A stretch of 55,975 nucleotides of DNA, taken from the NCBI GenBank assembly GCA_026415715.1, contig JAOAGO010000017.1, positions 1-55,975 on the forward strand. Reading direction: 5' to 3'. The stretch comes from Chitinophagaceae bacterium. GTDB lineage: Bacteria > Bacteroidota > Bacteroidia > Chitinophagales > Chitinophagaceae. The notes beneath the pieces were generated by a model. It did no database searches, was not told where the DNA came from, and saw only the letters and a program-made list of their open reading frames with translations. The position numbers and the translations under genes are program-made. This document shows positions 2,000 through 46,018 of this stretch, piece after piece (within the stretch, counting starts at the first letter, position 1; every line of letters begins with the position of its first letter).

Positions 2000-2206
2000 G
2001 TCCTGATTTTTAGTTTTAAAAAATGGATGGAATAATTTAAATGAGAGTTTTAGAGTTGTTTCATGAGTATGCTGGCTATGTACAGTTAAATAGACTTCTT
2101 TATTCACTTAAGGTTTATTACATTATTTCCGGAAAGAAGAAAAAGTAATGTGAAAAAAATGTAAAAAAAAAGATTTGCCATATCATAAATTCTGAATTGC
2201 GATACT

Positions 2207-2214
2207 TACATTTG
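2207..2214 (+). promoter_or_regulatory. promoter -7 box for the cobalamin riboswitch and btuB
   Basis: TACATTTG matches the Bacteroidota -7 consensus TAnnTTTG exactly. Transcription would start near 2221, just at the 5' edge of the riboswitch. No clear -33 TTTG at 19-21 bp spacing. Confidence 0.5.
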
Positions 2215-2215
2215 C

Positions 2216-2424
2216 TGCGGCTTGGTTCCGCCCCGGGCGGATGAAAAGGGAAGTCCGGTGAAGTGAATCCTCATCACGAGTCACGAGTCCGGCGCTATCC
2301 CCGTAGCTGTGATACCCCCGCAAGATTTTTTCCTGCGGAGTGTTTGCTGAAAATAAGACCACTGTCCTCTAAGACGGGAAGGTTTCAGCAAGGGTAAAGC
2401 CAGAAGACCTGCCAGGCCCTGAGT
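2216..2424 (+). promoter_or_regulatory. cobalamin (adenosylcobalamin) riboswitch
   Basis: The leader of the TonB receptor gene carries the ordered conserved segments of the cobalamin aptamer: GGGAAGTCCGGTGAAG near 2249, a GCGCTATCCCCGTAGCTGTGA-like core near 2291, CCACTGTCCTC near 2360, GGGAAGG near 2377 and the B12 box AAGCCAGAAGACCTGCC at 2397-2413. A TTGCTTT/AAAGCAA hairpin (2435-2455) follows directly, then an intrinsic terminator. Ligand-bound RNA is expected to reduce btuB expression when B12 is plentiful. The aptamer call is strong; the mechanism is inferred. Confidence 0.93.
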
Positions 2425-2489
2425 AATTTATTTTTTGCTTTCGGGCGAAAAGCAAGAAATGTAACAGCACTCCGCTTTTATATTTCTTC

Positions 2490-2553: not shown

Positions 2554-4485
2554 ATGAAAAAAGGATTCTTTGTGCTGGCTGTGGCAGTATGGGCCAGCCC
2601 GCTGATTGCGCAAAAAGATACTGCCGTACTGGATGAAGTAGTCGTAACCGCAAACAAGATGGAACAAAAGCAAAGCCGAACCGGAAAGGTCGTCACGGTT
2701 ATCGGCAGAGATGTATTAGAACGAAATGCAGGAAAAACGCTCGGGCAGGTATTAAATGAACAGGTAGGATTGAATATCGTTGGGGCCTATCAGACACCCG
2801 GGAGTGTACAAACCGTATTTCTGCGCGGCGCCTCATCAGGTCGAACACTCATCTTATTAGACGGCATTCCGGTTTATGACCCCTCGCTGATAAATAATGA
2901 GTTTGACATTAATTTGATTTCATTAAATGATGTTGAACGCATCGAAATATGCCGGGGCGCTCAATCCACGCTCTACGGAAGCGATGCTATCGGCGGGGCC
3001 ATAAATATCATCACGGCAAAAAAAGACCAAAGCAAACCTTTTCAGGGAACAGGCCTGCTGCAATACGGCAAACTGAATACGGGCAGAGCAAATGTAAAAG
3101 TGTATGGACGTATCGTTGAAAAACTGACCTATTCCGGTGGTTTTGCTAAAATGACAACGGATGGCTTTTCGGCTGCACACGACAAAAACAACACAGGCCG
3201 TTATGATGATGATAAATTTAACGGGAATATGGGCAATTTTTCCCTGAATTATCAAATTGCCCCCTCTCTTTCTGCCAGAGCATATATCCTGAACAGCGAG
3301 TATAAGGGAGATATAGATAACGCCGCATTTCGGGATGATAAAGATTATACTCTAAGAAATCAGTCGCTTTATTCCGGCGGCGCCATCCAATGGAAAAAGG
3401 GAAAGCTTAACCTTACAGCCAATGTTCAGTGGGGCAACCTGAAAAGAAGATATATTGATGACAGTCTTTTTGTAGGGGGCTTTGCCAAATACAGCAGAAA
3501 TATTTACAACGGCAATACCCGCTTTGCCGAACTGTACGGGAATATCCGCATATTGGATTGGTTGACATTGCTGGCAGGAACAGATTACCGCAAAGGAAGC
3601 ATGAAGCAGGATTTTCTTTCCATAAGCAGCTTCGGCCCTTATACGAGCAAATTTGAAAACAAATGGCTGGAACAGATTTCGGGGTATGGTTCCGTTTTTC
3701 TGAATTTTTTACAGAATAACCTTACCATTGAACTGGGGGCCCGCTACAATGACCATTCTCGTTACGGAAATAATACTACGTTTACCTTTAATCCTTCCTA
3801 CCTGATAAAAGACCGGATACAGTTTTTCGGTAGTATAGCTACAGGATTTAAAGCGCCTTCCGTTTTTCAGATTTATGATGCTTTCTCCGGCAATCAGAAT
3901 CTTAAACCTGAAAAATCCGTGAATTACGAGTTGGGTGCAAATTTTTTGCACCCTAAAATCAGAAGCCGTCTAGTGTATTTTCACAGAGAAATTACCGATG
4001 GGATAGATTATAATTATGTCACCTTTAAATATTTCAATCTTTTAAAGCAAACCGTAAACGGTGCAGAGGTTGAACTGAATGTGACTCCTGTAAAAGGGCT
4101 TCAGATTACATCAAATTATACTTTTTTGAATGCTGAAGAAAAAACCCAAAGCAGAAGAACTTTTAAAGACACTACGTACAGCTATTTGTTGCGACGCCCC
4201 CGTCATCACCTGAATCTTACCCTAGGCTATCAGTTTGCGCCCTCTTTGTTTGCCTCGGTCAGTGCAAAAGCGGTGAGTAAACGATTTGATGTGGGTGGTT
4301 TCCGGGCAAATGATGTGGAAGTGGGTGGTTTCTTTCTTTTAAATGCTTATGCGGAATATGAGTTCGGCAAGCAAGTGCGCCTCTTCATGGATTTGCAGAA
4401 TATAACGAATAAGACGTTTTTTGAGATTAACGGATATAATGCCATACCGTTTCTGGCTTCGGGAGGCTTATCGTTCCGCTGGTAA
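2554..4485 (+). CDS. btuB: TonB-dependent vitamin B12 receptor, BtuB type
   Basis: Outer-membrane active transporter, 643 residues. A signal peptide (residues 1-19, ending LIAQ) leads to a TonB-box-like DEVVVTA, a plug domain (about 30-150, with LLDGIPVYDP and GAQSTLYGSDAIGGAINI) and a long beta-barrel ending FLASGGLSFRW with a terminal aromatic residue. At 643 residues it is close to BtuB (about 600) and much shorter than SusC-type receptors. The cobalamin riboswitch directly upstream makes corrinoid the likely substrate. No BtuF, BtuC or BtuD genes are nearby, so periplasmic and inner-membrane steps must be encoded elsewhere. Confidence 0.92.
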   Translation: MKKGFFVLAVAVWASPLIAQKDTAVLDEVVVTANKMEQKQSRTGKVVTVIGRDVLERNAGKTLGQVLNEQVGLNIVGAYQTPGSVQTVFLRGASSGRTLILLDGIPVYDPSLINNEFDINLISLNDVERIEICRGAQSTLYGSDAIGGAINIITAKKDQSKPFQGTGLLQYGKLNTGRANVKVYGRIVEKLTYSGGFAKMTTDGFSAAHDKNNTGRYDDDKFNGNMGNFSLNYQIAPSLSARAYILNSEYKGDIDNAAFRDDKDYTLRNQSLYSGGAIQWKKGKLNLTANVQWGNLKRRYIDDSLFVGGFAKYSRNIYNGNTRFAELYGNIRILDWLTLLAGTDYRKGSMKQDFLSISSFGPYTSKFENKWLEQISGYGSVFLNFLQNNLTIELGARYNDHSRYGNNTTFTFNPSYLIKDRIQFFGSIATGFKAPSVFQIYDAFSGNQNLKPEKSVNYELGANFLHPKIRSRLVYFHREITDGIDYNYVTFKYFNLLKQTVNGAEVELNVTPVKGLQITSNYTFLNAEEKTQSRRTFKDTTYSYLLRRPRHHLNLTLGYQFAPSLFASVSAKAVSKRFDVGGFRANDVEVGGFFLLNAYAEYEFGKQVRLFMDLQNITNKTFFEINGYNAIPFLASGGLSFRW

Positions 4486-38362: not shown

Positions 38363-39058
38363 ATGTATCTAATCATAAAGCGTTTTTTTGATGTTCTGTT
38401 TTCATTATTGCTTTTGTTAATCCTGTTTCCTTTATTTATATTGATTGTTATTGTAATGCTTTTAGCAGGGGAAAAGGAAATATTCTTTTTTCAGGAACGG
38501 GTGGGTTTTAAAAATAAAATATTTAAGATCTGGAAATTTGCCACCATGCTGAAAAACAGTCCCAACATGGGACATGGTGATTTAACGGTGCGAAATGATC
38601 CCCGCATCACTCCGGTTGGTAAATACCTCCGCATGACAAAGCTGAATGAACTTCCGCAGCTGATTAATATTCTCAAAGGCGACATGTCGTTTGTAGGGCC
38701 ACGGCCGCTGATGAAAAAGGGATTTGACCGATACAGCGATGAAATGAAAGCCAAAGTGTACAACGTAAAACCGGGCCTTACAGGCATCGGCTCCATTGTA
38801 TTTCGCGATGAAGAATGGATAGTTACCCACAGCCGGCTGAGTCCCGACGAATGTTACCGCCTGGAAATACTTCCCTACAAAGGAGCGCTGGAGTTATGGT
38901 ATCAGCAGCACCAGAATTTTTATACTGATTTTATGATTCTGCTGCTCACGGCTTGGTACATTGTTTTTCCGAAAAGCCGAATGGTTTATAAAGTTTTTCC
39001 CCATCTGCCGCCGGCAGAGCAATATCTGCCACGGTGGGCTATTGAACAACGCCGATAA
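38363..39058 (+). CDS. initiating sugar-phosphate transferase (PglC-like)
   Basis: 231-residue membrane protein that starts the repeat unit by moving a sugar phosphate to undecaprenyl phosphate. One N-terminal hydrophobic segment (about 10-36), then ERVGFKNKIFKIWKFATM, DPRITPVGKYLRM and LINILKGDMSFVGPRP. In characterised PglC the catalytic pair is Asp-Glu in DELPQL; here the sequence is NELPQL (Asn95-Glu96), so the nucleophile position is Asn. Its stop overlaps the phosphatase start (TAATG). Confidence 0.88.
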   Translation: MYLIIKRFFDVLFSLLLLLILFPLFILIVIVMLLAGEKEIFFFQERVGFKNKIFKIWKFATMLKNSPNMGHGDLTVRNDPRITPVGKYLRMTKLNELPQLINILKGDMSFVGPRPLMKKGFDRYSDEMKAKVYNVKPGLTGIGSIVFRDEEWIVTHSRLSPDECYRLEILPYKGALELWYQQHQNFYTDFMILLLTAWYIVFPKSRMVYKVFPHLPPAEQYLPRWAIEQRR

Positions 39059-39807
39059 TGTTTACCTTTTTTAAGAAAAAAAATGCCTTGTCCGGCGAAG
39101 TTGAAAAAATATTTTCACTTCTGCAGACCGATATGCATTCACATTTGCTGCCGGGAATAGACGACGGAGCAAAAGATACGGAAACTTCGCTGCAACTCAT
39201 CAAAGGTCTTCATCAACTTGGCTATACCCGTTTGATTACTACTCCGCATGTTTTGTGGGATCTCTATAAAAACACTCCTGAAATCATAAAGCATAAATTA
39301 CAAATTGTTCGTGAAGCCCTGGAGCAAAACAATATACCCGTTGAGATCAACGCTGCCGCTGAATATTTTCTGGACGATCATGTAGGGGATTTACTGAAAA
39401 GAAAAGAACCCCTGCTCGCTTTTGGAAAAAATTATGTACTGGTAGAATTCTCTCTTGCTTTTCCGCAACATAATATCAAGGAAATTCTGTTTGAAATGCA
39501 GATGCAGGGCTACCAGCCGGTTATTGCCCATCCTGAACGTTATATTTACCTGAAACAGAACAAACCCTTTTTTGATGAACTGAAATATAACGGATGCCTT
39601 TTTCAACTCAATCTGCTTTCGGTTACGGGTTATTACGGAAAAACCGTTACGGAGCTGTCCGGATATCTCCTGAATAAAAAATATTATGATTTGCTGGGAA
39701 CCGATCTGCATCATGTCCGTCATCTGGAAATGCTTCAGGAAAGCAGCGCTCTGCGACAAATCAGAAAAATTATTGAAAATCACAATTTTTTGAATAACGA
39801 ATTATAA
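39058..39807 (+). CDS. CpsB/CapC-type protein-tyrosine phosphatase (PHP family)
   Basis: 249-residue manganese-dependent phosphatase. PHP motifs: TDMHSHLLPGIDDGA, TTPHVLWD, and PVIAHPERY, plus GTDLHHVRH late. These match CpsB/YwqE/Wzb-type enzymes that remove phosphate from the tyrosine tail of the Wzc kinase. It closes the operon that Wzc opens, forming a kinase-phosphatase pair. Overlaps the preceding gene by 1 bp. Confidence 0.9.
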   Translation: MFTFFKKKNALSGEVEKIFSLLQTDMHSHLLPGIDDGAKDTETSLQLIKGLHQLGYTRLITTPHVLWDLYKNTPEIIKHKLQIVREALEQNNIPVEINAAAEYFLDDHVGDLLKRKEPLLAFGKNYVLVEFSLAFPQHNIKEILFEMQMQGYQPVIAHPERYIYLKQNKPFFDELKYNGCLFQLNLLSVTGYYGKTVTELSGYLLNKKYYDLLGTDLHHVRHLEMLQESSALRQIRKIIENHNFLNNEL

Positions 39808-39868: not shown

Positions 39869-40747
39869 ATGAACAGTTTCAGTATAAAGGATTTGGAAAA
39901 TCTGACCGGTATTAAAGCCCATACGCTACGGATATGGGAGCAACGGTACAATTTTCTGAAGCCAAAACGCACTGAAACCAATATTCGTTATTATACCAAT
40001 GATGAATTAAAGCTGCTGCTGAACGTATCGCTGTTGAACCGGTACGGCTATAAAATTTCCCAAATCAGCCGGATGAGGCCCGATGAGCTATCTGAGAAAA
40101 TCAACTTATTAACAGATCCTAAGGCAGCTCAGGAAAAAGTAATTCATCAATTGGTGCAAACCATGGTAGATTTTGATGCCGATGGATTTGAGAGAGTCCT
40201 CAACCGGCAGATTCTGCTGAGAGGAGCGGAAAAAACATTCACCGAAATTTTATTTCCTTTTCTGGAGAAGATCGGAATACTCTGGCAAACCGGTAACATC
40301 ATGCCGGCACAGGAACATGTTGTCAGTAATATTATCCGGCAAAAATTAATTTCCGCCATTGATCAATTACCACCGGTAAAACAAAATGAAAAACCGATTA
40401 TTCTTTTTCTTCCTGAAGATGAATTTCATGAACTGGGGTTGTTGTTTGCCAATTATCTGATGAAAAAAAGAGGGATAAAAACATTATATCTGGGTGCCAA
40501 TGTTCCTCTAGAGGATGTATTTGCCGTTTGTGAAATTATGAAACCTTCCTATCTCTATACGCATATTACTTCCACAGGTTCTGATTTTAATACGGATAAG
40601 TTTTTAAACTCAATAGCAAAAATTCTATCACCCTACAAAATAGTAATGTCCGGTTCTGTTACTTCTTCTTACAAAAAAGAAATCTCCCCCAACATTCAAT
40701 TCAAAAAATCTTTGAGAGAGGTTATTGAATTTATTAATAATTTATAA
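39869..40747 (+). CDS. MerR-type regulator with B12-binding domain, CarH/LitR-like
   Basis: 292 residues. MerR helix-turn-helix at about 1-70 (IKDLENLTGIKAHTLRIWEQ RYNF, with Arg/Trp at the usual places), a helical B12-cap domain (about 85-165) and a cobalamin-binding Rossmann domain (about 177-292). The photosensor signature W-x9-EH is present (Trp139, Glu149, His150). The base-off axial ligand motif reads ExHxxG (Glu185, His187, Gly190), against the usual DxHxxG. The residue after Trp139 is Gln. Such proteins bind adenosylcobalamin, repress carotenoid genes in the dark and release DNA in light. It stands just upstream of the carotenoid operon. Confidence 0.85.
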   Translation: MNSFSIKDLENLTGIKAHTLRIWEQRYNFLKPKRTETNIRYYTNDELKLLLNVSLLNRYGYKISQISRMRPDELSEKINLLTDPKAAQEKVIHQLVQTMVDFDADGFERVLNRQILLRGAEKTFTEILFPFLEKIGILWQTGNIMPAQEHVVSNIIRQKLISAIDQLPPVKQNEKPIILFLPEDEFHELGLLFANYLMKKRGIKTLYLGANVPLEDVFAVCEIMKPSYLYTHITSTGSDFNTDKFLNSIAKILSPYKIVMSGSVTSSYKKEISPNIQFKKSLREVIEFINNL

Positions 40748-40904
40748 TTAATTATTATTTGAATCAGATTAACAATCTTTTTACAGTTTATTTTTTTTAA
40801 ATTATATTATATATTTAAAATCAAATATTTAAGATAAAAATAAAACTTTAATTTATTAGTTTGATTTCAAAATTCAGTTTGAATAAATTTTTTTGTGAAA
40901 AAAT

Positions 40905-40939
40905 TTTGTTTAACTTTACGTAGCCAAAAGTTAAACAAA
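40905..40939 (+). promoter_or_regulatory. perfect 13-bp inverted repeat, likely CarH-like operator over the crt promoter
   Basis: TTTGTTTAACTTT (40905-40917) and its exact complement AAAGTTAAACAAA (40927-40939) are separated by 9 bp. TAACTTTA inside the left arm resembles a -7 box, placing the start of transcription near 40925; the right arm ends on the A of the sigma-factor ATG. A protein bound here would block the promoter. Confidence 0.75.
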
Positions 40940-41442
40940 TGAAATCGCTCAATCAATCCTTCGATCAGTTGCTTCTTGAAAACACTTCCTTTTTGAAACC
41001 CTTTGCCATCAATCTTACCCGCGATAAAGATGCAGCTGATGATTTGTATCAGGATACGCTTTGCAAGGCGCTTGCCAATAAGGATAAATATCAGCAAGGC
41101 ACTAACATCAGGGCCTGGTTATTTACCATAATGAGAAATATATTTATCAATAATTACCGAAGAAAATCAAAACAAAAAACCATATTTGATAATTCTCCCA
41201 ATGAATACCTTCTTCACACCTCAGCTACAGTAAAAAATCAGGGTATTACCAACGTACAATTGAAAGAAATCCGGAAAGCCATTCATGAGTTGCCTGAAAT
41301 CTTCAAAACACCATTCCTTCTCTATTTTGAAGGATACCGCTATCATGAAATTGCCGAAGCCCTTAACGAACCTCTGGGTACAATTAAAAGTCGTATCCAT
41401 TTTGCCCGTAAATTGCTGAAGGAACAAATCAGTCGTTATTAA
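40939..41442 (+). CDS. ECF-family RNA polymerase sigma factor
   Basis: 167 residues. Sigma region 2 runs through DLYQDTLCKALAN and NIRAWLFTIMRNIFINNYRR; region 4 is FEGYRYHEIAEALNEPLGTIKSRIHFAR. It leads the carotenoid operon, 4 bp before crtI, and no anti-sigma factor is nearby. This echoes the light-induced CarQ sigma of Myxococcus, but the resemblance of roles is inference. The start is fixed by the promoter-operator palindrome. Confidence 0.9.
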   Translation: MKSLNQSFDQLLLENTSFLKPFAINLTRDKDAADDLYQDTLCKALANKDKYQQGTNIRAWLFTIMRNIFINNYRRKSKQKTIFDNSPNEYLLHTSATVKNQGITNVQLKEIRKAIHELPEIFKTPFLLYFEGYRYHEIAEALNEPLGTIKSRIHFARKLLKEQISRY

Positions 41443-41446
41443 CAGA

Positions 41447-42925
41447 ATGTTTTCCGGAAAGAAAATTATTGTCATCGGTAGCGGTTTTGCCGGGCTGTCT
41501 GCCGCCACATTTTTAGCGCATCACGGTTTTCGGGTAACGGTGTTGGAGAAAAATGCCGTACCGGGCGGCCGTGCGGCACGTTTGGAGCATAACGGATTTA
41601 CGTTTGACATGGGCCCGAGTTTTTACTGGATGCCCGATGTATTTGAAAGATATTTTTCTCTTTTCGGGAAAAAGGTTTCCGATTATTATACGTTGTTACG
41701 TCTGAATCCCTCTTATCGGATTTACTGGGAAGACGGTTACACCGATATTCCTGCCGGATATCAGGCTTTACAGTCTCTTTTTGAAACACTGGAGCCCGGA
41801 AGTGCAAAAAAGCTGGATGCTTTTCTGAAAGAAGCGGAATATAAATACAAGGTAGGCATGAATAATCTGGTGTATAAACCCTCGCGGTCAGTTACGGAAT
41901 TTCTGAACTGGCCTACCCTGACCGGCATGATGAAACTGCAGGTGTTTACTTCCATCAGAAAACACATTGCCCGCTATTTTTCTCATCCCAGGCTCAGGCA
42001 GATGCTTGAATTTCCGGTGTTGTTTCTGGGCGCTTTACCCCAAAATACTCCTGCCTTATACAGCTTAATGAACTATGCCGATATCCGTGGCGGCACCTGG
42101 TATCCTTTAGGCGGAATGTATGCCGTGGTGGAGGGAATGCACCGTCTGGCAAAAGAAAAAGGTGTTGAGTTCAGGTTTAACCATGAAGTAAGCGAACTTC
42201 GTTTTTCGGGAAATGTAATTAAAGAAGTAGTAGCAAATTCCGACGCCTTTCAAGCCGATGCCGTCATCAGTACGGCAGACTATTATTTTACGGAAACGCA
42301 TCTTTTGCCGGAAGCGCTCAGAAGTTATTCAGAAAAATACTGGGACAAACGGATCATGGCGCCTTCGGCGTTGCTGTATTACGTAGGGCTTGGTAAAAAA
42401 CTTAAAAACATCACTCATCATGCGCTTTTCTTTGATGTTCCCTTTGAAAGGCATGCTGAAGAAATTTATTCCCATCCGCAGTGGCCCACCGAGCCTTTGT
42501 TTTATGTTAGTGTTCCCTCGGTAACCGATACTTCCGTAGCGCCGGCGGGTTGTGAGAATATCGTGATTTTGATTCCGGTAGCTTCAGGATTGGCGGGTGA
42601 TGACGAAGAAATAAGAAAGCGCTATTTTCTAACGGTTGTTAGCAGAATGGAAAGAATTGTTGGGGAAGATATCGGTAATTCCGTTATTTTTATGAAATCC
42701 TATTCGGTAAGCGATTTTAAAAGAGATTATCATTCTTTTAAAGGAAACGCTTACGGCCTGGCAAATACATTATTTCAAACGGCATTGTTCAGGCCGGCCT
42801 GCCGAAGCAAAAAAGTAAAGAATCTGTTTTATGCGGGACAACTTACCGTTCCGGGTCCGGGGGTACCCCCCGCATTAATCAGCGGTGAGGTGGCAGCAAA
42901 CTATTTAAGAAAAAAAATGTTTTAA
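41447..42925 (+). CDS. crtI: phytoene desaturase
   Basis: 492-residue FAD enzyme turning phytoene into lycopene. FAD-binding VIGSGFAGLSAATFLAHHG at the N-terminus, GGRAARLEHNGFTFDMGPS next, and C-terminal NLFYAGQLTVPGPGVPPALI, the family signature. Length and motifs are normal for bacterial CrtI. Downstream of the ECF gene in one operon with crtB. Confidence 0.95.
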   Translation: MFSGKKIIVIGSGFAGLSAATFLAHHGFRVTVLEKNAVPGGRAARLEHNGFTFDMGPSFYWMPDVFERYFSLFGKKVSDYYTLLRLNPSYRIYWEDGYTDIPAGYQALQSLFETLEPGSAKKLDAFLKEAEYKYKVGMNNLVYKPSRSVTEFLNWPTLTGMMKLQVFTSIRKHIARYFSHPRLRQMLEFPVLFLGALPQNTPALYSLMNYADIRGGTWYPLGGMYAVVEGMHRLAKEKGVEFRFNHEVSELRFSGNVIKEVVANSDAFQADAVISTADYYFTETHLLPEALRSYSEKYWDKRIMAPSALLYYVGLGKKLKNITHHALFFDVPFERHAEEIYSHPQWPTEPLFYVSVPSVTDTSVAPAGCENIVILIPVASGLAGDDEEIRKRYFLTVVSRMERIVGEDIGNSVIFMKSYSVSDFKRDYHSFKGNAYGLANTLFQTALFRPACRSKKVKNLFYAGQLTVPGPGVPPALISGEVAANYLRKKMF

Positions 42926-42934
42926 TTTAGTTGC

Positions 42935-43771
42935 ATGGTATCATTGTTTCATAAAGTATCTCAGGATTGCAGCCGTATCGTGACGAAGAAATACAGTACA
43001 TCCTTTTCTTCGGCCATTCGTTTGCTGCATAAAGACCTCAGAGCGCCGATTTACAACATATACGGATTTGTACGCTTTGCCGATGAAATTGTTGATACCT
43101 TTCATCATCAGGACAAACAGCGTTTGCTGGAAGAGTTCAAACGGGAAACCTACCATGCCCTTGAAAGAAAGTTAAGTCTGAATCCCATTTTAAACAGCTT
43201 TCAGCAAACGGTTCATCAATATCATATCAACCGCCACCTGATTGACGCTTTTTTTCACAGTATGGAAATGGATTTGACAAGAACGGCTTATGATAAAAGC
43301 GGATATCAGGAATATATCTACGGATCGGCGGAAGTGGTAGGGCTTATGTGCCTTCATGTGTTTTGCGAAGGCAATCTGGATTTATATCAAAAACTGGAAG
43401 CGCCAGCCCGTTCGCTGGGCGCTGCTTTTCAGAAAGTGAATTTTTTAAGAGATATCAAAGCCGATTATAACGGCTTGTCCAGAGTGTATTTTCCCGATTG
43501 TGATTTTAATTGTTTTACCGAAAATGACAAGCGGAAAATTGAAGAAGATATTTATGAAGATTTCAAAAAAGCCTATCACGGCATATTGAAACTCCCCTGG
43601 AAAGCCCGTTTCGGTGTGTATGTGGCTTACAAATATTATCTTTCGCTGTTCCGAAAAATACAACGCATGAAATCTTCCGTTATTCTGAATAAACGAGTAC
43701 GCATTCCTAACTACCATAAGGCCATGATTGTGGTGAGAGCCGGAGTGAAAAACAAACTGGGGCTTATCTGA
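42935..43771 (+). CDS. crtB: phytoene synthase
   Basis: 278 residues. Condenses two geranylgeranyl diphosphates. Metal-binding DxxxD motifs are FADEIVDTF (about residues 49-53) and FLRDIKADYN (about 171-175); YIYGSAEVVGLMC and GAAFQKVNFLRD are typical. Separated by 9 bp from crtI and 1 bp from idi. The diphosphate synthase CrtE is not in the window. Confidence 0.95.
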   Translation: MVSLFHKVSQDCSRIVTKKYSTSFSSAIRLLHKDLRAPIYNIYGFVRFADEIVDTFHHQDKQRLLEEFKRETYHALERKLSLNPILNSFQQTVHQYHINRHLIDAFFHSMEMDLTRTAYDKSGYQEYIYGSAEVVGLMCLHVFCEGNLDLYQKLEAPARSLGAAFQKVNFLRDIKADYNGLSRVYFPDCDFNCFTENDKRKIEEDIYEDFKKAYHGILKLPWKARFGVYVAYKYYLSLFRKIQRMKSSVILNKRVRIPNYHKAMIVVRAGVKNKLGLI

Positions 43772-43772
43772 T

Positions 43773-44312
43773 ATGCAGGAAGAGCGGGTAATACTTGTGG
43801 ATGAAAATGATGAACCGCTGGGTGAAATGGAAAAAATGCAGGCGCACCGGACGGGGGCGCTGCATCGTGCATTCAGCATCTTTTTATTTAATAAAAAAGG
43901 TGAAATGCTTTTGCAAAAAAGAGCTGATGATAAATACCATAGCGGCGGTTTGTGGACAAATGCCTGTTGCAGCCATCCCCGGCCGGGCGAAGAAATTGCG
44001 GAGGCGGCCCGAAGAAGACTGATGGAAGAAATGGGTATTGAAACCCGGTTGCAGAAAGCCTTTCACTTCATATATAAAACCCGGGTTTCCAACAACCTTA
44101 CGGAGCATGAGCTGGATCATATCTTCACAGGCGAGTTTGACGGCCCTGTACCTTTCAATCCCGATGAAGTATCGGAAATTTGCTTTAAAACGCCGGCAGA
44201 AATCAGAAAATGGCTGAATACTCATCCCGAACAATTTACGGAATGGTTTCGTCTGGCGTTTGAACGGGTTCTGTCCTGGCATCAGCAACACATGAACGGA
44301 AAAAACGTATAA
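43773..44312 (+). CDS. idi: isopentenyl-diphosphate delta-isomerase, type 1
   Basis: 179-residue Nudix-fold enzyme interconverting isopentenyl and dimethylallyl diphosphate. Catalytic Cys in TNACCSHPRPGE, Nudix-like EAARRRLMEEMGIE, and the catalytic Glu region LTEHELDHIF. Sits one base after crtB, feeding the carotenoid pathway. Confidence 0.94.
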   Translation: MQEERVILVDENDEPLGEMEKMQAHRTGALHRAFSIFLFNKKGEMLLQKRADDKYHSGGLWTNACCSHPRPGEEIAEAARRRLMEEMGIETRLQKAFHFIYKTRVSNNLTEHELDHIFTGEFDGPVPFNPDEVSEICFKTPAEIRKWLNTHPEQFTEWFRLAFERVLSWHQQHMNGKNV

Positions 44313-44323
44313 TTTTACATATT

Positions 44324-44857
44324 ATGCAAACGCTATATTACATATTGGTACTGGTATCTACGTTTGTGATTATGGAAGGCGTTACCTGGTGCACTCACCG
44401 GTATGTAATGCATGGCTTTTTATGGTATTTGCATAAAGACCATCATCAGAAAAGGCCCGGCGTATTTGAAAAAAATGATTTCTTTGCTCTCATTTTTGCC
44501 ATACCCAGTTTTTTGCTTATTTATTTTGGCACCTTCCGGCATATCTGGTGGCTTCAGGCTATCGGTTTTGGTATTATGGCTTATGGCTTTGCCTATTTTC
44601 TGGTGCACGATGTTATTATTCACCAGCGGTTTAAATGGTTCAGCCGAAGCAACAATACCTATATCCGCGCCATAAGGTGGGCACATAAAATGCACCATAA
44701 ACATCTGGGAAAACATCCCGGTGAGAGTTACGGTTTTTTATTTGTACATAAAAAATACTGGGACAAAGTAAGAAGAGATAAGCAACTGATGGCCGGAGAA
44801 GCCAAATTTGATTATGCCCCGGAACAAACAGCCGCATCGGAAAAGACATCTTCTTAA
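44324..44857 (+). CDS. crtZ: beta-carotene hydroxylase
   Basis: 177-residue di-iron membrane hydroxylase with four hydrophobic segments. Histidine clusters are CTHRYVMHGFLWYLHKDHH, HDVIIHQRF and HKMHHKHLG, the CrtZ pattern. Adds 3-hydroxyls to beta-carotene to give zeaxanthin. Its TAA stop is in the same frame as crtY. Confidence 0.93.
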   Translation: MQTLYYILVLVSTFVIMEGVTWCTHRYVMHGFLWYLHKDHHQKRPGVFEKNDFFALIFAIPSFLLIYFGTFRHIWWLQAIGFGIMAYGFAYFLVHDVIIHQRFKWFSRSNNTYIRAIRWAHKMHHKHLGKHPGESYGFLFVHKKYWDKVRRDKQLMAGEAKFDYAPEQTAASEKTSS

Positions 44858-44878: not shown

Positions 44879-46018
44879 ATAAAAAAATATGATTTCATTA
44901 TTGCCGGAGCCGGTTGTGCAGGTTTGAGTCTTTCGGTACATCTGCTCCGGTCGGGAAAATTTTCCGATAAAAAAATTCTGATTATTGACCGCGATGAAAA
45001 AAAGAAGAACGACAGAACCTGGTCATTCTGGGAAACCCGTCCCGGGCCTTTTGAAGAAGTGGTTTCCCGACGATGGACCCGCACCCGGATTCACGGGAAA
45101 AACGAATTTCTGCTATTGCAACTGCAGCCTTACGAATATAAGCTGATACGCGGGATTGATTTTTATAATTACTGCCTGGACTATCTCAGCCGTTTTGGTA
45201 ATGTAGAATTCATCGTTTCGGATATTGAACGAATTATAAATGAAAACGGAAAAGCGAAAGTTTTTCTGCAACACGGCGAAGCTGAAGCAGAATTTGTTTT
45301 TAACAGCCTGCCGCCCGAACCGGTTTCTCAAACGAACCGGATGCATTGGTTGTTGCAACATTTTAAAGGATGGATCATTGAAACGGACGAGCCCGCTTTT
45401 ACCGCAGATGAAGCTACGCTGATGGATTTCAGAGTATCTCAGCATCACGGCACCACTTTTGTTTATATTAAACCGTTTTCTTCCTGCCGGGCGCTGGTTG
45501 AATATACGCTGTTTACCGACCGGCTTTTGCGGCCGGAAGAGTATGATGAAGGGCTTCGCCGGTATATTTCCGACATACTGCAGGTAAAAAATTACCGCAT
45601 AGCTGAAACGGAAAGCGGTGTTATTCCGATGACGAATTTTCCCTTTCCATCGCATCAGGGCCGGATTCTTTTTACGGGTACGGCCGGCGGCCTTACCCGC
45701 CCTTCTACCGGCTATACTTTTCGTTTTATTCAGAAGTATGCTTCTGCCCTTGTGCAATCGCTTATACGATACGGGCATCCTTATGCGGCAAAAAAGCCGT
45801 TGCCCCGTCGCCATTTTTTTTACGACAGCGTTTTGCTTCGTATTTTACGTAAGGGAACCGTACCCGGACATGTAATTTTTACCCGCCTGTTTCAAAGAAA
45901 CGAACCGGCGGCTGTACTTCGTTTTTTAGACGGTGAAACTTCGCTGGCACAAGAGTTGAAAATCATTTCTTCGCTTCCGTTTTTTCCTTTTCTGAAAGCC
46001 GCCATACGGCAGTTGTAA
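44879..46018 (+). CDS. crtY: lycopene beta-cyclase with a non-standard start
   Basis: About 379 residues. The reading frame IKKYDFIIAGAGCAGLSLSV supplies the FAD-binding GxGxxG fold, and family similarity begins exactly at the codon ATA (44879), where relatives have Met. The next start-type codon, TTG at 44924, would delete the FAD motif; the only other upstream option is CTG at 44870. Further landmarks: RTWSFWETRPGPFEE, SCRALVEYTLF, and TGTAGGLTRPSTGYTF near the substrate site. Cyclises lycopene to beta-carotene. It follows crtZ in the same frame after one TAA. Either ATA or CTG initiation, or an ATG lost by mutation or sequencing error. Confidence 0.88.
   Translation: MKKYDFIIAGAGCAGLSLSVHLLRSGKFSDKKILIIDRDEKKKNDRTWSFWETRPGPFEEVVSRRWTRTRIHGKNEFLLLQLQPYEYKLIRGIDFYNYCLDYLSRFGNVEFIVSDIERIINENGKAKVFLQHGEAEAEFVFNSLPPEPVSQTNRMHWLLQHFKGWIIETDEPAFTADEATLMDFRVSQHHGTTFVYIKPFSSCRALVEYTLFTDRLLRPEEYDEGLRRYISDILQVKNYRIAETESGVIPMTNFPFPSHQGRILFTGTAGGLTRPSTGYTFRFIQKYASALVQSLIRYGHPYAAKKPLPRRHFFYDSVLLRILRKGTVPGHVIFTRLFQRNEPAAVLRFLDGETSLAQELKIISSLPFFPFLKAAIRQL

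Follow-up and report, generated by a model that had tools for sequence, protein, structure and literature searches.

A carotenoid operon in a Chitinophagaceae bacterium is preceded by the gene of a CarH/LitR-like regulator and by a perfect inverted repeat over its promoter, and the original prediction that the two belong together as regulator and cognate operator is strongly supported by the fold, the pocket residues and the co-occurrence of repeat and regulator. With high confidence the regulator can be predicted, from sequence, to read the inverted repeat as its operator. The protein is likely to be a CarH-like, AdoCbl-loaded dark repressor that would be freed from the operator by light and would so govern the carotenoid operon. 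The sequence, the predicted fold, the residues and the co-conservation of regulator and operator are established directly in this study. The window referred to below is the whole stretch of DNA that was analysed, 55,975 nucleotides of contig JAOAGO010000017.1.

The regulator and its operon

The regulator gene (39869..40747, plus strand) encodes a protein of 292 aa with a MerR domain at the N-terminus (MerR_1, 5e-15), in which RIWEQRY is the counterpart of RQWERRY in the MerR domain of Thermus thermophilus CarH (TtCarH), followed by a predicted four-helix plus Rossmann cobalamin domain as in CarH and class I LitR. Predicted fold and pocket residues agree with those of TtCarH. Both cobalamin motifs named in the original prediction are present: W139 is followed after nine residues by E149-H150, as in Wx9EH (adenosyl cap codons W139, Q140 to E149-H150 at 40283..40318, plus strand; alignment with TtCarH and 91 relatives), and E185-x-H187-x-x-G190 corresponds to D/ExHx2G with the axial His (lower axial ligand codons E185-F186-H187 at 40421..40429, plus strand, aligned to TtCarH E175-R176-H177). 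The ligand motif is found in print as ExHx2G (PMC8156234) and in another version as D/ExHx2G/P (PMC9304148). The Glu of this motif had been listed as a departure from CarH, which is wrong, as Thermus CarH reads GERHEIG and has Glu too. Gln140 had been listed as a second departure, and here the claim holds, since it aligns with His132 of Thermus CarH, a change that is clade-wide; larger departures had been missed, namely the inverted operator units, the change of Ser222 to His and a lost salt bridge.

The remainder of the classic motif, x41-SxT/V-x22-27-GG, is incomplete in the regulator, which has His232 (codon at 40562..40564, plus strand) for Ser and SG for GG, while the Thr and the spacings are retained. 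The protein scores 114.3 bits against the NCBIfam CarH equivalog, the cut-off of which is 400 bits. Three of the four motifs of the SignatureFinder light signature (GxxW, EH, GxxH, GxxxP) are present, Asp184 replacing Gly in GxxH; all four are complete in 68 of 92 homologues. The hallmark of CarA, a Wx9EH motif without its Trp, is absent, the regulator having Trp139. No second full-length homologue was found in the genome of the window, where the only other match is of HTH length (34%).

The operon (plus strand throughout) begins with a gene for an ECF-type sigma factor (40939..41442; Sigma70_r2, Sigma70_r4_2) and continues with crtI, phytoene desaturase (41447..42925; NCBIfam NF058655, 725.8 bits, exceeding the cut-off of 640), a phytoene synthase-like crtB (42935..43771; SQS_PSY, 1.8e-44), idi, isopentenyl-diphosphate isomerase (43773..44312; TIGR02150, above cut-off), a likely crtZ-type hydroxylase (44324..44857), which gave no Pfam or NCBIfam match and is assigned by its place and His-rich sequence, and crtY, lycopene cyclase (44924..46018; Lycopene_cycl, 1e-52). 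On the other side, a CpsB/CapC-type gene of a polysaccharide cluster (39058-39807, same strand) ends 61 bp 5' of the regulator gene; a homologue lies directly 5' of the regulator in 20 of the 80 loci of the contig scan described below.

The inverted repeat and its conservation

The repeat (40905..40939) is exactly as originally claimed: its 13-bp arms (40905-40917 and 40927-40939) are 100% complementary, the spacer is 9 nt, and the repeat ends at base 40939, on the A with which the sigma-factor ATG starts. The core TGTTTAA-N17-TTAAACA (40907..40937, centre 40922) is conserved in the family. Taken alone, the inverted repeat is weak evidence and mildly improbable, as order-1 simulation of the AT-rich intergenic stretch gave arms of at least 13 (spacer 3-25) in 32 of 2000 runs, and the case therefore rests on conservation in relatives. 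No other match to the repeat with up to three mismatches was found in the 2,626,356-base genome. A looser search of this genome with TGTTTAA-N6-30-TTAAACA found four sites, and the reversed control found one. A spacer of 16-17 occurs only at the crt site; the other three sites have spacers of 27 (within an ORF), 21 (close to the end of a contig) and 24 (5' of a 488-aa ORF), and a wider regulon in this genome is therefore not claimed.

For comparison we sampled 195 genomes from the GTDB family to which the window belongs, taking the best sigma-gene match in 136 of them, window included (L037-L172), among the matches listed; these matches reach down to 45% identity, and some may be non-orthologous. 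The 160 bp 5' of the sigma gene were searched for TGTTTAA-N14-19-TTAAACA. Where the regulator lies upstream in the same orientation (n=89), the box is exact in 73 cases, has one mismatch in 10 and two in 3, and is lacking in 3; where the regulator is reversed (n=3), one box is exact and two have one mismatch. The 44 loci without a regulator gave 9 exact boxes, 2 with one mismatch, 3 with two and 30 without any. We counted a box as qualifying if it has at most one mismatch, a spacer of 16-17 and a start 28-60 bp 5' of the ATG. Among the matches listed, such a box is present in 86 of 92 genomes with an adjacent regulator, in 10 of 15 that encode a homologue at another place (any regulator match at E <= 1e-15, paralogues counted) and in 1 of 29 that encode no homologue, the single exception, G112, being a genome that is 69% complete. 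Pooled, this gives 96/107 with a regulator homologue against 1/29 without (Fisher 5e-19), and for loci with crtI adjacent 77/80 against 0/6 (Fisher 2e-7), again among the matches listed, both P values being too small as the genomes are related. No qualifying box was found in 11 of the 107 homologue-bearing genomes among the matches listed. Six of these have an adjacent regulator. Only two-mismatch sites occur in G162 and G085, G096 has two-mismatch sites, no site is present in G183 or G111, and in G036 the box is gone together with the cobalamin residues.

A contig scan yielded 80 loci, many of them from Chitinophagaceae, Sediminibacterium, Hydrotalea, Ferruginibacter, Lacibacter or Terrimonas; this set overlaps with the family sample (e.g. 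G155 C8 / L179). The sigma gene is adjacent in 68 of the 80, and all 68 carry the box, 48 of them two boxes, with crtI within 2.5 kb in 64. Genome-wide, among the matches listed, 68 of 117 family genomes hold the exact box, with 108 copies in total, and 20 hold the reversed pattern, with 25 copies. Exact boxes away from the sigma gene were examined in 26 loci among the matches listed, and in six of these (L315, L318, L325, L326, L336, L337) the box stands directly 5' of crtI with no sigma match in the locus; in L316 and L337, among the matches listed, it stands 5' of the regulator gene. The position of the repeat at the sigma-factor promoter could mean that it belongs to another protein, such as a regulator encoded elsewhere or the sigma factor. 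We consider this very unlikely, as among the matches listed 28 of 29 sigma homologues in regulator-less genomes have no box, and boxes occur before crtI in the six loci without a sigma match as well as upstream of merR in four genomes (G008, G025, G063, G070). In these four, among the matches listed, an exact box lies 15-29 bp 5' of the regulator gene, which suggests autoregulation there; in the window no box was found upstream of the regulator gene. Among the matches listed, exact boxes were also seen in two genomes near 6-pyruvoyl-tetrahydropterin synthase genes (L317, L330, sites 2001-2030), a possible further target of a light regulon, and in three genomes between genes judged by eye from their translations as RpoD-like and START-like (L312, L322, L335, near 2001).

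Two sets were used, A1, with 30 of the 92 homologues plus the window, and A2, with 48 of the 80 contig-scan loci plus the window. When A1 was applied to 296 Bacteroidota genomes, a homologue turned up in 58, of which 9 are family members. Of 21 outside-family loci read, 13 have a box with at most one mismatch and a spacer of 16-17: in ten it sits between regulator and sigma gene (L261-L266, L269-L271, L274), crtI following in 9 of the ten, in L267 and L280 upstream of the regulator gene, and in L281 elsewhere. No such box was found in 8 of the 21, including L273, where crtI lies directly downstream of the regulator. A paralogue clade of nine rows (L342, L344-L351; SH-aLRT 99 in a quick tree) keeps the B12 pocket residues at loci away from crt genes; a response-regulator-like gene, judged by eye, adjoins the paralogue in 6 of 9. 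The exact box is present in 0/9 of these loci, and a single box with one mismatch was found, in L342. The genome of L342 (G106) has an exact box at its sigma promoter, so the paralogue clade may read the box too.

The likely -7 promoter element, which had been placed under the repeat, is supported: TAACTTTA (40911..40918, plus strand) lies inside the left half-site, and the columns of 82 boxes agree, reading TAAnTT(T/C)(G/A) from the left half-site on, with a TT that is invariant though unselected. The columns fit the Bacteroidota -7 consensus, TAnnTTTG. The -33 element is weak, TTTG being found 25 bp 5' of the -7 box in 19 of 81. A dyad over the -7 box and the start region fits the placement expected of a repressor site. 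Membership of the MerR family might instead point to a classical activator that bends the promoter, which is highly improbable, given that the site covers the -7 box and the sequence downstream of it rather than lying between the promoter elements, and that its units are 24-25 bp apart. A leader RNA hairpin hiding the start codon, with a 13-bp stem and a 9-nt loop that would end at the ATG, is barely credible, for in the set of 81 boxes that was analysed (of 82) the core, flanking and inner pairs show no compensatory change beyond what the columns predict, the bases are invariant rather than paired, and no Rfam match was obtained at 40000-42000; with no excess covariation in 81 boxes, the hairpin was rejected.

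The geometry of the sites was examined in the 92 promoters with an adjacent regulator (89 co-oriented, 3 reversed) and in 43 of the 44 without. Of the 92 promoters, 77 have inverted TGTnnA/TnnACA units spaced 25 bp and 21 have them spaced 24 bp (expected 0.5 each); tandem 11-bp units are present in 6 (expected 1.0). Other direct spacings are slightly above the shuffles (14 bp in 11/92, 17 bp in 9/92). The window has one inverted pair at 25 bp and no direct 11-bp pair. The tandem 11-bp TnnACA repeats of CarH operators in print (PMC8156234, PMC9304148) are thus missing, and a tandem-repeat operator was rejected; the Thermus locus (L173), with units at offsets 63, 74 and 85, i.e. three tandem 11-bp units, served as positive control. 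The inverted 25-bp spacing would require a two-fold arrangement of the DNA-binding domains. Among the 97 loci that have a downstream box (at most one mismatch), 59 also have a second, upstream one (at most two mismatches), at a centre distance of 55-57 bp in 52 of the 59 and otherwise 53 (2), 54 (2), 58, 46 and 36.5; the window has the downstream box only, with no second box about 56 bp upstream. The distances of 46 and 36.5 fall short of the usual one by roughly one and two helical turns, and these two cases hint at co-operative binding on a single face of the DNA.

Cofactor pocket and proposed light switch

Of the 92 homologues adjoining the sigma gene, counting that of the window, 87 retain Trp, Glu-His and axial His jointly, as do 38 of 41 further Bacteroidota homologues. 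In the homologue of L101 (genome G036) Trp, Glu-His and axial His are lost at a promoter without the box, a natural loss case. The position of Thermus His132 is variable in the 92, with Leu 27, Gln 24, Met 15, Ile 8, Val 8, Ser 4, His 3 and Thr 3, and that of Ser222 is His in 89; among the 41 further homologues, His is present in 0 at the former position and in 16 at the latter. At the Arg176 position the 92 have His 42, Tyr 29, Ile 8, Phe 7, Leu 3, Arg 1 and others 3, and at the Asp201 position Asn 74, Asp 9, Ser 8 and Val 1. The first Gly of the Thermus GG is replaced by Ser in 86 and the second is Gly in all 92.

It is very probable that the regulator binds AdoCbl, and release from DNA by light is likely. 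We infer AdoCbl binding, an oligomer, repression and release by light to act as follows. In the dark, AdoCbl would be held from below by His187 and capped by Trp139, Glu149 and His150, which would stabilise the oligomer, the MerR domains of which would grip both inverted TnnACA half-sites (40907-40937). The bound oligomer would cover the -7 box and the stretch as far as the sigma start codon and keep RNA polymerase off sigma-crtI-crtB-idi-crtZ-crtY. Light would break the Co-C bond, the oligomer would loosen and free the operator, and sigma factor and carotenoid enzymes would be made. With His132 missing, a bis-His light state like that of Thermus cannot form by way of this position; water held by the capping Glu, as described for CtMerR, would be the likelier cobalt ligand in the light.

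The supply of cofactor is in keeping with this. The genome encodes a PduO-type adenosyltransferase (E 7e-63), and the window contains a cobalamin riboswitch (2206..2430, plus strand; RF00174, 88.4 bits); no other was found elsewhere in the genome. The pocket, the PduO-type enzyme and the riboswitch are consistent with control by AdoCbl and light, which is plausible. The riboswitch precedes a gene for a BtuB-like TonB-dependent receptor (2554..4485, plus strand; TIGR01779, E 8e-72, 242.6 bits, below the cut-off of 599.7), about 36 kb away from the regulator.

The presence of riboswitch and receptor in the window also suits a different view, that the AdoCbl-dependent repressor reports cobalamin supply or redox state instead of acting as a physiological light switch, pigment being made when B12 is short. 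Of the 92 homologues, 89 lack the Thermus His132, changes are also seen at Ser222 and in the interface pair, and Thermus H132A mostly fails to dissociate in light, being mostly tetramer in one study, which notes an earlier contrary report (PMC10442372). Such a supply sensor is nevertheless unlikely: Trp, Glu-His and axial His are kept together in 87 of 92, the target genes make photoprotective pigments, and CtMerR, with Arg at the His132 position, still monomerises in light (PMC11796333). The same source gives Gln at this position in SasPcob (PMC11796333), and with both examples the change of His132 is compatible with a light switch. The homologues may represent a separate Bacteroidota branch of B12 photoregulation, with no His132, two-fold dyads in place of tandem repeats and a clade-specific His by the axial-ligand relay, a reading that we judge quite possible without favouring it. 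The light-state chemistry and the DNA-bound assembly might then both be unlike those of Thermus CarH, and the dyads, we would tentatively add, might often be paired, about 56 bp apart and helically phased.

Comparison with known systems

A literature search that covered few subscription papers revealed no CarH/LitR function in Bacteroidota and no B12/light regulator of carotenoids for this group. In the accessible part of a report on a Nonlabens crt cluster a MerR-type gene is named at its head and nothing further (PMC11855829), and that of a Chryseobacterium study describes light-induced pigment and reports no MerR gene (PMC7064467). If light control is true, many pigmented Bacteroidota would gate their carotenoids by B12 and light. 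It is disputed whether His132 of Thermus CarH is needed for DNA release in light (PMC10442372), and a clade that mostly lacks His132 and yet keeps regulator and operator together opens this question to direct testing. The dyad, being sharply defined, might also serve as a part in light-controlled gene expression.

Thermus CarH/LitR (PDB 5C8D, 5C8E, 8C31-8C37) shares the half-site TnnACA with the system described here. In contrast to it, the regulator has Gln140 for His132, Phe186 for Arg176, Asn211 for Asp201, His232 for Ser222 and SG for GG, and lacks the Arg176-Asp201 salt bridge at the interface; where Thermus has tandem 11-bp repeats, the operator of the window has inverted units at a spacing of 25 bp, and the operon starts with an ECF sigma gene. 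Chloracidobacterium CtMerR (PDB 8JBS, 8JBT) is 18% identical to the regulator in the aligned part. The photocobilin SasPcob (PDB 8J2W, 8J2X) has, according to the accessible description, a bilin-binding region and no MerR domain, unlike the regulator. In Myxococcus xanthus, CarH and CarA lie beside carotenoid genes, as the regulator does in the window. An earlier proposal had CarA bind inverted repeats (PMC9304148), and direct repeats are now favoured by the M. xanthus footprints; the Trp of Wx9EH is missing from CarA, and its anti-repressor CarS is restricted to myxobacteria (PMC8156234, PMC9304148).

As the second half of the classic motif, a score above the NCBIfam cut-off and a tandem-repeat operator are all missing, the regulator is a CarH-like variant and not textbook CarH. 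In Streptomyces coelicolor, LitR pairs with the ECF sigma factor LitS, which is reportedly tied to light-dependent crt expression. The likeness to the window, drawn by description only, consists in an ECF sigma factor that is linked to light-dependent crt genes. With the features of the adenosyl cap and the axial ligand retained, the regulator probably works like CarH.
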